A stretch of 64,000 nt of DNA from Nitrosopumilus adriaticus (GTDB taxonomy: Archaea > Thermoproteota > Nitrososphaeria > Nitrososphaerales > Nitrosopumilaceae). The stretch lies in NCBI RefSeq assembly GCF_000956175.1, contig NZ_CP011070.1, positions 434,001-498,000 of the forward strand, given 5' to 3'. Positions 26,550 to 30,652 of this stretch are shown piece by piece; positions within the stretch are counted from its first letter, which is position 1; the number at the start of each line of letters is the position of its first letter. The notes under the pieces are model-generated. The model was not told the DNA's origin and ran no database searches. It saw only the letters and a list, made by a program, of their open reading frames with translations. A program made the position numbers and the translations under genes.

Positions 26550-26942
26550 TTATTGAGATTTAATGGTTGCCAAAGTTTCCATAATTACTTTGATTTGCTT
26601 CATTAGGACTTGTTGCATATCTGCTAGCTGTTCTTGCAAGAATTTAATCTCCTCCCGTAGTTTTTGATTTTCTTCTCTAAGACTAATTAGTTCTTTCTTG
26701 TCGTCATCATACTTGTCATCATCGTATCTGTCGTCATCATACTTGTCATCATCGTATCTGTCGTCATCATACTTGTCATCATCGTATCTGTCGTCATCAT
26801 ACTTGTCATCATCGTATCTGTCGTCATCATACTTGTCATCATCGTATCTGTCGTCATCTTCGCTTGCAAAAGCAAAGCCAGTAGGCAGAGAAAGCACCAA
26901 AATTGCTAACAGAAAGAATGTTGCAATACTGTATTTCTTCAT
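26550..26942 (-). CDS. secreted Asp/Tyr-repeat coiled-coil protein (copy 1)
   Basis: 130 residues from ATG 26942; this start is chosen because the other copy (45881) has no start codon further upstream in the matching sequence. Signal peptide MKKYSIATFFLLAILVLSL, then about ten units alternating RYDDDKYDDD, then a heptad-repeat coiled coil (LREENQKLREEIKFLQEQLADMQQ). The acidic repeat could bind calcium or other cations at the surface. The second copy has more repeats. Confidence 0.8.
   Translation of the reverse strand: MKKYSIATFFLLAILVLSLPTGFAFASEDDDRYDDDKYDDDRYDDDKYDDDRYDDDKYDDDRYDDDKYDDDRYDDDKYDDDKKELISLREENQKLREEIKFLQEQLADMQQVLMKQIKVIMETLATIKSQ
26701..26850. repeat. 30-bp tandem repeats inside the Asp/Tyr-repeat gene (five units)
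   Basis: Five identical 30-base units plus a partial one, encoding ten residues each. Identity at the DNA level means recent slippage or gene conversion. Confidence 0.9.
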
Positions 26943-27128
26943 GGTAAACATAACGGCAAAATTCAATTTAATGAGGGTAGATATTTTCCATAACTGATTT
27001 TCATGTATGAAAGTAATGCCTAATCTTTCATAATATTATGGAAAAATTATTGATAGAGCCGGATGGTTTTACTTTAGACTGAAAGAGTACGATGTCTCAT
27101 TTTATCTACCAAGAGTAAAAGATTACAA

Positions 27129-27458
27129 TTAACGAGGCCAATAAAACATGATTGCAACCCCTATCAAGACAATAATGGAACCTATTATCTCAAATCTGTC
27201 TGGTTTTTTCTTGTCAACCCAATATCCCCAAATAATTGAGGATACTACAAATATTCCTCCATACGTTGCATACACTTTTCCAAAGTCTGCGGGTTGCAAA
27301 GTCATAACAATTCCATAAGAAAATAAAATCAATCCACCAATCAAACCCAATACCTTTCCCTTATGATCACGTAGCCATTTCCATACAAGATACCCTCCAC
27401 CAATCTCTAGTAGTGCTGCAAAAAAGAAAATGCCAATAGTTGATGCTACTTCGACCAA
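27129..27458 (-). CDS. YnfA/UPF0060-type membrane protein B
   Basis: 109 residues, four helices. LLEIGGGYLVWKWLRDHKGK and ATYGGIFVVSSIIWGYWVDKKKPDR are the UPF0060 signatures; the family is related to small multidrug resistance transporters. Positive residues concentrate in loops 1 and 3 (WLRDHKGK, DKKKPDR), which predicts both ends outside. Overlaps its paralogue by 13 bases. Together they may form an antiparallel heterodimer. Confidence 0.85.
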   Translation of the reverse strand: MVEVASTIGIFFFAALLEIGGGYLVWKWLRDHKGKVLGLIGGLILFSYGIVMTLQPADFGKVYATYGGIFVVSSIIWGYWVDKKKPDRFEIIGSIIVLIGVAIMFYWPR

Positions 27459-27811
27459 ATTTTTTCTCCTTTTCTTGGATAGTAGAAAATTATCAAGACT
27501 CCAATAACCGCAATTATTGTTCCAACGATGTCATAGTTGTCAGGAGTTACTCCATCAATTAGCCACCCCCAAAATACTGACATTACAATAAAGACTCCTC
27601 CATAAGCTGCATAGACTCTATGAAAGTGAGTTTTCTGAAATGTGGGGACTATTCCATACAAAAATAACACGAATCCTCCGATTGCCCCTAATACAAAACC
27701 AAAATCTTCACGTATCCAAAGCCAAACTAGGTACCCACCACCAATCTCACAAAGACCAGCTAGAAAAAATAACAAAACTGAAGTGAAAAAATTCTTTGGT
27801 TGGTTATTCAT
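27446..27811 (-). CDS. YnfA/UPF0060-type membrane protein A
   Basis: 121 residues, four helices, with CEIGGGYLVWLWIRED and AAYGGVFIVMSVFWGWLIDG. Here the basic residues sit at the N-terminus, loop 2 (QKTHFHR) and C-terminus (PRKGEKIWSK), predicting both ends inside, opposite to the overlapping paralogue. It is the first gene of the pair. Confidence 0.85.
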   Translation of the reverse strand: MNNQPKNFFTSVLLFFLAGLCEIGGGYLVWLWIREDFGFVLGAIGGFVLFLYGIVPTFQKTHFHRVYAAYGGVFIVMSVFWGWLIDGVTPDNYDIVGTIIAVIGVLIIFYYPRKGEKIWSK

Positions 27812-27865: not shown

Positions 27866-27976
27866 TTGGAATCCAAGAAAAAGCAGTTTTGTGGTTATTG
27901 TCCTGAAGACAAATGTTTGTTAGATTGTAAGATATGTAATCCAAAGTTTGGCAAAGGATGCAAATGTGATTGCTAA
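27866..27976 (+). CDS. 36-aa cysteine-rich mini-protein
   Basis: TTG start about 20-27 bases after a TATATTATA box. Eight Cys in 36 residues: FCGYC, KCLLDCKIC, GCKCDC. Likely binds two metal ions or iron/copper, in the style of a metallothionein or small zinc knot. Its closeness to the metal regulon at 28.6-30.7 kb fits this. Too small for a family call. Confidence 0.5.
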   Translation: MESKKKQFCGYCPEDKCLLDCKICNPKFGKGCKCDC

Positions 27977-28638: not shown

Positions 28639-29106
28639 TTGACTGTTGATCTTGACAATATCGATGTTGCAATAATAAAATCCTTAATGCAGGATGGAAG
28701 GAAATCCTTTCGAGCTATCTCTAGAGAACTTAAAATCAGCACTCCTACCATTAAAGCAAGATATGATAGGTTGGTAAATATGGGATTGATTAAATCTGTA
28801 CGCCCAGAAATTGACATTTCAAAAATTTCAGTTAGCGCTAAGAAAAAACTTCCAAACGAATTGGTAGATTATCTAAAGATTCAAAAAAAGAGTCTTCACA
28901 TCAATCTTGACAATCTCAAGGTAAAACTAGAATGTGAATTTTGTGAAGGGCCAATTCATGAAAAACCCAAAGTATTAAAATTTGCAGATATTGAGAGATT
29001 TTTCTGCTGTAGTTCGTGTAAAAATGACTACCGGGAAAAATATGGTGGAAGAATACAATCTTTAATTGAAGAATATGAAGAAAATAAAAAAATGAAAAAA
29101 GCCTAA
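28639..29106 (+). CDS. Lrp-type regulator with C-terminal TRASH metal-sensing domain
   Basis: 155 residues, TTG start. AsnC/Lrp HTH at about 5-55 (DVAIIKSLMQDGRKSFRAISRELKISTPTIKARYDRLVNMGLI); C-terminal TRASH domain CEFCEGPI then FFCCSSCKNDYREKYG, a cysteine set that binds copper or similar metals. Such proteins control copper resistance genes in archaea. It is convergent with the DUF4396 gene (4-base overlap), and nearby promoters carry TTTACAATTGTAAA, a likely operator. Confidence 0.88.
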   Translation: MTVDLDNIDVAIIKSLMQDGRKSFRAISRELKISTPTIKARYDRLVNMGLIKSVRPEIDISKISVSAKKKLPNELVDYLKIQKKSLHINLDNLKVKLECEFCEGPIHEKPKVLKFADIERFFCCSSCKNDYREKYGGRIQSLIEEYEENKKMKKA

Positions 29107-29582
29107 TGGCATGAAGGCTTTTTCCCTTTTTGGACTTCTTTTTTCATAGCCCAGTACATTATTGGGTATGATGCCAAAAATCCAACAGGCAATATTATTG
29201 CCAATCCAATCCAGAAGATAGGACCAAACAAATGTGCGCCAATAAATCCCGGAATTAGAAATGCTGCAGTGTTTTCAGCAAATTCCATTGATGCTATGCT
29301 TGCAGTATCTCCCACAATTGCAACTCTAGCTGCTTGTTTTAGAGATAGTGTCTTGAGCATTGGAATTATTGTAAAAGCGTAACCTGTTGCAAAGGCTAAA
29401 CTCACAGCAAGAATCAGGGTAGAAATAAAATCCCAATTGTAATGGAATCCCAATATCATTCCAGTAACTTCTCCAATGTTGCATCCTAGCAAACATCTAA
29501 GGGTGTGCTTTATTGTCTCTTTACGCAAATTAGTAGACGTTAGTCCATGTTTTGCATGAGTTGTGTGGTTGTTTTGATTCAT
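29103..29582 (-). CDS. DUF4396 membrane protein
   Basis: About 160 residues from ATG 29582 (an upstream ATG is inside the operator region). HTLRCLLGCNIGEVTGMILGF is the DUF4396 signature, with Cys residues in the first helix, followed by three more helices and a His/Cys tail (KKPSCH). The N-terminus is His-rich (NNHTTHAKHG). The family is linked to metal handling; a copper role is inferred from the operator and the neighbouring TRASH regulator. Confidence 0.82.
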   Translation of the reverse strand: MNQNNHTTHAKHGLTSTNLRKETIKHTLRCLLGCNIGEVTGMILGFHYNWDFISTLILAVSLAFATGYAFTIIPMLKTLSLKQAARVAIVGDTASIASMEFAENTAAFLIPGFIGAHLFGPIFWIGLAIILPVGFLASYPIMYWAMKKEVQKGKKPSCH

Positions 29583-29619
29583 GACCGCTATACGGCAATC
29601 AGGTAGATATTGACTAGAC

Positions 29620-29633
29620 TTTACAATTGTAAA
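29620..29633. promoter_or_regulatory. TTTACAATTGTAAA operator 1
   Basis: A perfect 14-base palindrome 38 bases upstream of the DUF4396 start. Two further exact copies lie at 30126 and 30179. Confidence 0.65.
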
Positions 29634-29782
29634 ATACACTACACTGTGAATTCATTTAGCAATACAACCTAAAAAATCAAAGAAACAAAACATGTTGTTT
29701 TTTTCTTTGAATATAAAATACAACAACTATCTAAAATTAACTAAAGTTTAATTCAAAAATCATATCCATGTAGCAAAGACAA

Positions 29783-29926
29783 TCATGAGATTCCTTCCTT
29801 TAGAATTGCTCTAGCATTTAGTAAAGACTCGTTATTTCTGGTAAGATTTCTTTTGAATTGAACAAATCTACTCATTATTCCATTGTAAGAGATCACCGCA
29901 TCCTGAACTAATGACCTTTTACTCAT
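29783..29926 (-). CDS. 47-aa basic helical protein
   Basis: ATG at 29926 overlaps the stop of the 65-aa gene (ATGA). Product is basic and helical (SKRSLVQDAVISYNGIMSRFVQFKRNLTRNNESLLNARAILKEG in part), no membrane segment. Translational coupling and the metal-type operator upstream of the pair are the main clues. Function unknown. Confidence 0.55.
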   Translation of the reverse strand: MSKRSLVQDAVISYNGIMSRFVQFKRNLTRNNESLLNARAILKEGIS

Positions 29927-30120
29927 TTGACTCTCTCCTCAAACAATGTCCATGTCAATCCTTGAAGATCCTCCCAACTTACTGGAGTTTCATCATCCAC
30001 AAGAGTTTCCACTTCTTTTACAGGTTCTTTGGTTACCTGAGTTGTTGACAGCGAGTGTTGCTGTTTTGTTTTTATGCATTGTTGCATGTATGAATAATAT
30101 GATGTGATATAGTTATTCAC
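29923..30120 (-). CDS. 65-aa acidic protein in the operator-controlled pair
   Basis: ATG at 30120, six bases from operator 2. N-terminal Tyr/Gln-rich helix (MNNYITSYYSYMQQCIKTKQQ) and an acidic tail with EDLQGLTWTLFEER. No known family. Cotranslated with the 47-aa gene and divergent from DoxX. Confidence 0.55.
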   Translation of the reverse strand: MNNYITSYYSYMQQCIKTKQQHSLSTTQVTKEPVKEVETLVDDETPVSWEDLQGLTWTLFEERVK

Positions 30121-30125
30121 AAGAC

Positions 30126-30139
30126 TTTACAATTGTAAA
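30126..30139. promoter_or_regulatory. TTTACAATTGTAAA operator 2
   Basis: Exact copy immediately upstream of the 65-aa gene on the minus strand. Confidence 0.65.
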
Positions 30140-30178
30140 ATAAAAAATCTGAACTGGAAAATACTCCAATATTGTATA

Positions 30179-30192
30179 TTTACAATTGTAAA
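30179..30192. promoter_or_regulatory. TTTACAATTGTAAA operator 3
   Basis: Exact copy 38 bases upstream of the DoxX start, the same distance as operator 1 from its gene. Confidence 0.65.
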
Positions 30193-30229
30193 GTATACTG
30201 TTGATTTATCCTGTAGTGTATAATGAGAC

Positions 30230-30652
30230 ATGATTAAACTACAACAAAAACAACAACCAAACAAAATCCAAGAATTAACCTATTGGGGAATTAGAGCCTC
30301 AGTTGGAATAATATTTTTTGTATATGGTATGCAAAAATTCGATCCAGTATGGCGGGATCATTTAATTGGTTTTGGACTTCCTCCAGAACTGCAAATCCCT
30401 ATTGCGTTGGCTGAAACCATAGGCGGTATGTTTCTCATAGTTGGATTTATGACTAGAATCACTGGTGTCATATTTAGCATAATTCTATTGGATGCAATAT
30501 TTCACATTAGATGGGAAAACGGATTCTTCATATCTCAAGGTGGTTGGGATTATGATCTTGCACTTCTTGCAATGATGTTATTTATCATTGCAACTGGAAC
30601 TGGTAAAATCTCCATCAATTCAAAACTGAAGATTCCAAAAATTCTTCAGTGA
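30230..30652 (+). CDS. DoxX-family membrane protein
   Basis: 140 residues with four helices: YWGIRASVGIIFFVYGMQKF, then ALAETIGGMFLIVGFMTRITG (the DoxX signature), then two more, the last around LALLAMMLFIIATG. DoxX proteins associate with quinone or thiosulfate oxidation and with redox stress. Operator 3 places it in the putative metal-responsive regulon. Confidence 0.85.
   Translation: MIKLQQKQQPNKIQELTYWGIRASVGIIFFVYGMQKFDPVWRDHLIGFGLPPELQIPIALAETIGGMFLIVGFMTRITGVIFSIILLDAIFHIRWENGFFISQGGWDYDLALLAMMLFIIATGTGKISINSKLKIPKILQ

Follow-up and report, generated by a model that had tools for sequence, protein, structure and literature searches.

A candidate palindromic operator for Lrp-TRASH copper regulators of ammonia-oxidising archaea

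The window analysed here, a 64-kb stretch from a marine ammonia-oxidising archaeon whose genome is a single contig of 1.80 Mb, carries three identical palindromes at which a copper-sensing switch protein, the product of a neighbouring gene, very probably docks. Comparison with relatives points to a wider arrangement, in which such a switch and a palindrome upstream of the promoter box very probably control the genes for copper pumps and for the maturation of copper proteins throughout the ammonia-oxidising archaea (AOA). An earlier sequence-only reading called the window genes a possible new copper-stress set. The architecture is not new, being already known in kind from archaeal CopR; what is new, as read from the genomes, is a defined operator and promoter geometry for CopR-like regulation across AOA. 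Both ammonia oxidation and electron transfer in these organisms rely on copper, and a precise operator, a regulator family and a target list spanning several genera make cop regulation directly testable in cultured strains.

Palindromes, genes and promoters in the window

The 14-letter palindrome TTTACAATTGTAAA occurs in three exact copies in the window, the same three that the sequence-only reading had placed at 29620, 30126 and 30179, and the 64 kb hold no further copy with up to two mismatches. A first-order Markov model predicts 0.0028 exact copies per 64 kb, and 0.08 in the whole genome against the six observed, all of which fall within two islands. The features around the sites are listed below, with conservation given relative to a near-identical cluster in another Nitrosopumilus genome (L114), a Nitrosarchaeum locus (L115) and a decayed locus in genome G018.

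28639-29106, plus strand: REG1, a 155-aa regulator with an Lrp/AsnC-type HTH and a C-terminal TRASH domain (Pfam); candidate binder of the palindromes
29103-29582, minus strand: DUF4396 membrane protein, 159 aa (Pfam PF14342, 1.3e-32; ATG at 29582; dN/dS 0.11)
29603-29610, minus strand: weak TATA-like element of the DUF4396 promoter, 10-17 nt past operator 1; a partial TTAAATAT match, located from the family-wide TATA peak
29620-29633, no strand: candidate palindromic operator 1, exact match, 37 nt before the DUF4396 ATG; position kept in L114 and L115
29783-29926, minus strand: 47-aa ORF, 83% conserved in L114; dN/dS 0.35, below other frames
29923-30087, minus strand: 54-aa ORF, ATG at 30087; dN/dS 0.16 versus L114
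30109-30116, minus strand: TATA-like element of the 54-aa ORF promoter, 10-17 nt past operator 2
30126-30139, no strand: candidate palindromic operator 2, exact match, 38 nt before the 54-aa ORF; kept in L114
30179-30192, no strand: candidate palindromic operator 3, exact match, 37 nt before the DoxX ATG; kept in L114, L115 and at the decayed G018 DoxX
30202-30209, plus strand: TATA-like element of the DoxX promoter, 10-17 nt past operator 3
30230-30652, plus strand: DoxX-family membrane protein, 140 aa (Pfam DoxX, 1.2e-9; dN/dS 0.11)

Two of the gene starts deserve comment. What had been described as a 65-aa ORF is better read as 54 aa from the internal ATG at 30087, because L114 has an in-frame stop just upstream. 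The DUF4396 start is likewise the ATG at 29582 rather than an upstream GTG, which falls beyond the palindrome. The spacing of 38 bases that had been noted for two genes is real but undercounted, as all three genes lie 37-38 nt from their palindrome. The start of the 47-aa ORF overlaps the stop of the 54-aa ORF, neither has a Pfam match, and in both ORFs synonymous change exceeds amino-acid change in the own frame, although few substitutions enter the two dN/dS values.

The same geometry runs through the family. Among 190 promoter sides with a downstream gene, the TATA box TTAAATAT starts exactly 10 nt past the palindrome in 105 (at least 6 of 8 matches) and at any other single offset in at most 12, and ATG codons peak 37-38 nt from the palindrome. 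The centre of the TATA box thus lies about 24 nt before the ATG, which would place transcription start at or near the start codon. The site-bearing genes are therefore probably leaderless, with the palindrome abutting the BRE. The three window promoters keep the correct spacing, and their TATA matches are weaker than those of the family.

Regulators and the sites that accompany them

The sites extend well beyond the window. Three of the six exact genomic copies of TTTACAATTGTAAA lie in a second island (island 2, at 182-192 kb, about 270 kb away), and the free-centre motif TTTACANNTGTAAA has six exact sites in the 174-194 kb stretch, where copies with up to two mismatches number 22 against a mean of 4.2 and a maximum of 11 in 200 shuffles. 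Besides a second regulator (REG2), island 2 has genes for two DsbA-like thioredoxins, HtrA, a DsbD/CcdA-type membrane protein, a YHS protein, a glutaredoxin, a plastocyanin, a beta-propeller protein and a Met-rich protein, and it adjoins a NirK-like multicopper oxidase. Sites that are exact or have one mismatch precede the genes for DsbA, REG2, HtrA, CcdA, plastocyanin, the propeller and the Met-rich protein. Each of the two islands holds an Lrp-TRASH gene. The possible copper-stress set proposed from the window thus stands as a set but not in its extent, which is far larger, with the second regulator and the main island lying outside.

Domain searches agree with the earlier recognition of an Lrp-TRASH regulator alongside the sites. 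The HTH_AsnC match (Pfam PF13404) has an E value of 5.4e-12 in REG1 and 6.5e-14 in REG2. The TRASH match of REG1 (9e-5, 22.9 bits) falls just under the Pfam cut-off of 27 with its Cys pattern intact, and those of REG2 (34.7 bits) and of the REG1 ortholog in L115 (29.3 bits) exceed it. The TRASH Cys columns are invariant in the alignment, the invariant residues of REG1 being C99, C102, C123, C124 and C127. The two regulators are 52% identical, both keep the TRASH cysteines, and their recognition helices are nearly identical (STPT[IV][KQ]ARY[DQ]RL); REG1 itself has a dN/dS of 0.09 versus L114. Profile and fold searches with REG1 return Lrp-family HTHs (PDB), the fold match being restricted to the Lrp HTH, and in a predicted model, of the monomer only, a disordered linker joins a winged HTH to a TRASH module, the HTH and TRASH parts being of fair quality. 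By Pfam, the RAM domain (AsnC_trans_reg, PF01037) is absent from REG1, REG2, L097, L115 and L140, and it is present in more distant TRASH relatives from other families of the order (L095, L058, L193).

Across genomes, the sites follow the regulator. Among 41 genomes, the four with a close regulator hold 13 (the window genome, G000), 17 (G013), 5 (G003) and 4 (G031) sites, and the 37 without one hold 0-4 each (4 versus 37, p 4e-4). In 80 loci (0.88 Mb) around homologous regulators, obtained from a scan of named genomes of Nitrosopumilus, Nitrosarchaeum, Nitrosotenuis, Nitrososphaera, Nitrosocosmicus and relatives, TTTACANNTGTAAA has 138 exact copies, as compared with at most three for each of 59 half-site-permuted palindromes and 0-1 occurrences for any spacer other than 2. 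The largest cluster of site-bearing genes in these relatives comprises CPC-type P1B ATPases and YHS proteins, followed by the regulator itself, CcdA/DsbD, DsbA and Met-rich proteins. The palindromes thus behave as a real regulon, as had been claimed: they are conserved, and they recur at copper-ATPase, DUF4396 and DoxX promoters of relatives. In the orthologous loci L117, L124, L186 and G031 the regulator is encoded together with copA, which is not so in the window genome. Within the genus, 3 of the 25 members searched, counting the window genome, have a close regulator, and this patchiness suggests an ecological marker for copper exposure.

A much expanded version of the system is present in G013 (within C1:580000-724000; L082, L083, L085). 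It consists of an island of about 33 kb with about 20 operators and a further regulator locus, and its genes include those for two copper ATPases, for rhodaneses and for several DsbA proteins. In addition, contigs labelled Phycisphaerae, Amylibacter, Saprospiraceae and Planctomycetota (L131, L134, L163, L188) encode REG2-type regulators that fall inside the Nitrosopumilus clade, and these are probably mis-binned AOA contigs.

Which of the two regulators reads the window sites is a separate matter. The sequence-only reading named the neighbouring Lrp-TRASH protein, and it is the best candidate, as sites persist where only a window-type regulator is found. No second regulator of this type was detected at E 1e-12 in 12 genomes with a REG1 ortholog, several of which are incomplete MAGs that may miss a paralog. 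Most of these genomes keep sites at CopA, DUF4396 or DoxX promoters, and in the 11 of the 12 whose few sites were read one by one, most sites precede genes for copper ATPases, a YHS protein, an MFS transporter, DUF4396 or DoxX. Since the gene order in L117, L124 and L186 is, moreover, site-CopA-REG1, we infer by guilt by association that REG1 binds the palindrome. A somewhat unlikely alternative is that the window sites are read by REG2 of island 2 and that REG1 acts elsewhere. It would account for the fact that REG2 is preceded by a site in its own genome and in those of relatives whereas no palindrome lies upstream of the REG1 gene, and the near-identity of the recognition helices would allow it. 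In a tree of 81 regulator proteins, REG1 groups with L114, L115 and Nitrososphaera proteins (99/94), a group with no member known to have a site before its own gene, and nearly all REG2 relatives have one. Against this alternative, REG1 orthologs travel with DUF4396, DoxX and the sites in three genomes, and most of the 12 genomes described above keep sites with no second regulator detected. Both proteins may bind, in which case REG2 would share the palindromic sites of REG1.

Copper and the competing signals

We consider it likely, from genome comparison, that a family of short, RAM-less Lrp-TRASH copper regulators in AOA uses TTTACANNTGTAAA as its operator and switches genes on at copper excess. 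A regulator dimer, of REG1 and/or REG2 in the window genome, would bind the palindrome directly upstream of the BRE and TATA box of largely leaderless genes. The TRASH cysteines would bind Cu(I) and thereby alter either the engagement of DNA by the HTH or the recruitment of TBP/TFB; most likely, the Cu(I)-bound regulator would promote TBP/TFB recruitment, so that excess copper turns the genes on. The core of the target set in relatives would consist of a copper-exporting P1B-ATPase, YHS proteins and the regulator's own gene. In the window genome, the same switch would drive an envelope copper and thiol set from both islands, made up of two DsbA proteins, DsbD/CcdA, HtrA, plastocyanin and the Met-rich protein from island 2, and DUF4396, the 54/47-aa pair and DoxX from the window. 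Activation on copper excess, as opposed to repression or a response to limitation, is the least certain part of this scheme.

The proposal has close precedents. The CopR/CopT proteins of Pyrococcus furiosus/Thermococcus and Sulfolobus also combine an Lrp-type HTH with a C-terminal TRASH domain, use the half-site TTNNCA/TGNNAA directly upstream of the BRE, are linked to copA (as are the AOA regulators in relatives only) and control multi-gene regulons (PMC7830388). In P. furiosus, CopR is a copA activator with the motif TTNNCAWWWTGNNAA directly upstream of the BRE; recruitment of TBP/TFB has been proposed in Pyrococcus and has genetic support in Sulfolobus and Halobacterium, and Thermococcus CopR has been reported as a repressor (PMC7830388). 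The AOA system differs in several respects: the spacer is exclusively 2 rather than the 3 of TTNNCAWWWTGNNAA, the half-site is the stricter TTTACA, and the regulators lack the RAM domain found between HTH and TRASH in CopR/CopT. The window genome departs further, having no CopA, two paralogous regulators and, as site-bearing genes, DUF4396, DoxX and a disulfide/cupredoxin set. VNG1179C of Halobacterium salinarum, an Lrp-like copper regulator and activator of a copper ATPase gene, resembles the REG1-type regulators by description. The cop box TACANNTGTA of Gram-positive bacteria belongs to CopY, a BlaI-family repressor unrelated to Lrp-TRASH proteins; its core looks identical to that of the AOA palindrome, presumably by convergence.

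Copper, the signal suggested in the sequence-only reading, is the best supported one because CPC-type P1B ATPases head the list of targets in relatives, and both of those that were tested score above the curated NCBIfam cut-off for copper-translocating P-type ATPases. The copper reading of the regulon is thus a well-supported proposal, even though its strongest marker, the P1B-ATPase, is missing from the window genome itself. An unlikely variant holds that the regulon answers copper limitation or the supply of copper to cupredoxins, with DsbA, CcdA, plastocyanin and NirK-linked maturation turned on for loading or scavenging. Such a role would suit island 2, where cupredoxin and disulfide-maturation genes sit beside nirK with no exporter, and it recalls Nitrososphaera viennensis, in which CopT is encoded near CopA2/CopZ and copper limitation raised the expression of both copA2 and a DsbD (PMC7785015). 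CopT adjoins a copper ATPase in an AOA and is probably of the same family; the rise of CopA2 is a poor fit to a simple excess-induced model, and AOA may differ from other archaea. The same study left the regulation of AOA cop genes an open question and described no operator (PMC7785015). On the other hand, the N. viennensis limitation motif TTCSGSMTTTGWACYANT differs in sequence from the palindrome and was rejected as the same element, the commonest site-bearing genes in relatives are CPC-type ATPases and YHS proteins, and copA of Pyrococcus, Sulfolobus and Halobacterium is activated through CopR-type proteins at excess copper.

Quite unlikely, in our estimate, is a regulon that responds to a different soft metal (Ag, Hg) or to thiol/oxidative damage and for which copper is one inducer among others. 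TRASH domains may also belong to systems for other metals, P. furiosus CopR came off its DNA with silver too, and thiol-disulfide proteins are numerous in the set, which further includes a rhodanese in G013 and DoxX. Yet the ATPases carry CPC and pass the copper-translocating cut-off, the other targets are plastocyanin-type and Met-rich proteins, and the sites that were inspected showed no recognisable mer gene. Finally, that the palindromes are chance occurrences or a repeat devoid of regulatory function is extremely improbable and was rejected on the window match scan, the Markov expectation (0.003 in the window) and the permuted-palindrome counts, as site position and TATA phase are kept across several families and the sites are conserved in L114; lone exact copies do exist in coding DNA, and the four further exact copies of TTTACANNTGTAAA elsewhere in the genome, one of them inside the aIF2-gamma gene and recurring there in relatives, look like such background. 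A tRNA or RNA-family reading was set aside because the palindrome keeps constant distances within promoters.

DUF4396, DoxX and neighbouring genes

No E1-E2 P-type ATPase of any kind was found in the window genome (PF00122 search; 99.9% complete), and 14 of 14 control genomes have one. Copper export must therefore rest on something else, which leads to the reading that DUF4396 with DoxX replaces CopA; the pair may take over the export or buffering of copper. A fuller version is possible but doubtful: this AOA lineage would have lost, or never had, a copper P-type ATPase, and its CopR-type switch would have been rewired to DUF4396-DoxX, with DUF4396 (CxxxC and Met-Glu in predicted helices) a new membrane copper exporter or chaperone that cooperates with DoxX in copper or thiol detoxification. 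Together, the operator, the regulator family and the target list provide DUF4396 and archaeal DoxX with candidate copper functions.

Regulator, DUF4396, site(s) and DoxX are kept together in the window genome, L114 and L115, and in L115 a single site between the divergent DUF4396 and DoxX genes serves both. Few genomes of the phylum have DUF4396 (3 of 300 above the cut-off), and it occurs with an operator in a Nitrososphaera genome as well (L210). An alignment of nine members from archaea and bacteria, including actinomycetes, has C30-x3-C34, E38, M99 and E100 as invariants; the predicted structure (pLDDT 49) gives nothing reliable beyond four helices. On some bacterial and haloarchaeal plasmids DUF4396 lies beside copper proteins: it adjoins a four-helix copper-binding protein in Streptomyces and is near plastocyanin and DUF302 in Halobaculum, and three other plasmid neighbourhoods have no clear copper gene beside it. 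In Acidihalobacter it is reported at the edge of a metal-resistance cluster (PMC7760498).

The earlier statement that DoxX has no known metal role is only partly right, as proteins of the DoxX family belong to the core of the copper-buffering bufferin clusters (PMC12452194) and the window protein matches the NCBIfam HvfX Cu-RiPP family, albeit below its cut-off (2.5e-8; 34.3 bits against 80). The likeness to bufferin/oxazolin (hvf-type) copper RiPP clusters (PMC12452194) lies in a DoxX-family membrane protein within a copper-stress set; unlike those clusters, the window proteins covered by a general Pfam scan include no recognised MNIO enzyme or Cys-rich precursor. The 54-aa ORF was considered as a bufferin-like Cys peptide and rejected, having a single Cys that is absent from its L114 counterpart. 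DoxX proteins elsewhere in the genus were likewise rejected as regulon members, the best-matching paralogs being without a site except in L115 and the decayed G018 copy. In the latter (L094; G018 C5, 9471 and 11582) the system is decaying: one operator precedes a DoxX pseudogene broken by stops and another a Met-rich gene, and the regulator is reduced to a TRASH fragment.

Several small genes upstream of REG1 were also noted. A 36-aa metallothionein-like ORF with nine Cys, under the usual ORF size limit, lies at 27866-27976 on the plus strand. It has homologs (E < 1e-10) in 5 of 41 genomes (G000 two, G003 three, G013 four, G018 two, and G008), mostly those that also hold Lrp-TRASH regulators, and homologs occur near such regulators in L082, L159, L165 and L184. 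It was not retained as a regulon member, as it has no upstream palindrome and a near-match is present at one homolog only (L082). Two adjoining UPF0060/YnfA-family membrane proteins (27129-27811, minus strand) recur as a pair near Lrp-TRASH regulators in L165, L184 and L190, and they were set aside because no palindrome lies near the window pair. Beyond them, at 26550-26966 on the minus strand, a 138-aa predicted secreted protein consists in part of repeated DDDKYDDDRY units and is possibly cation-binding.
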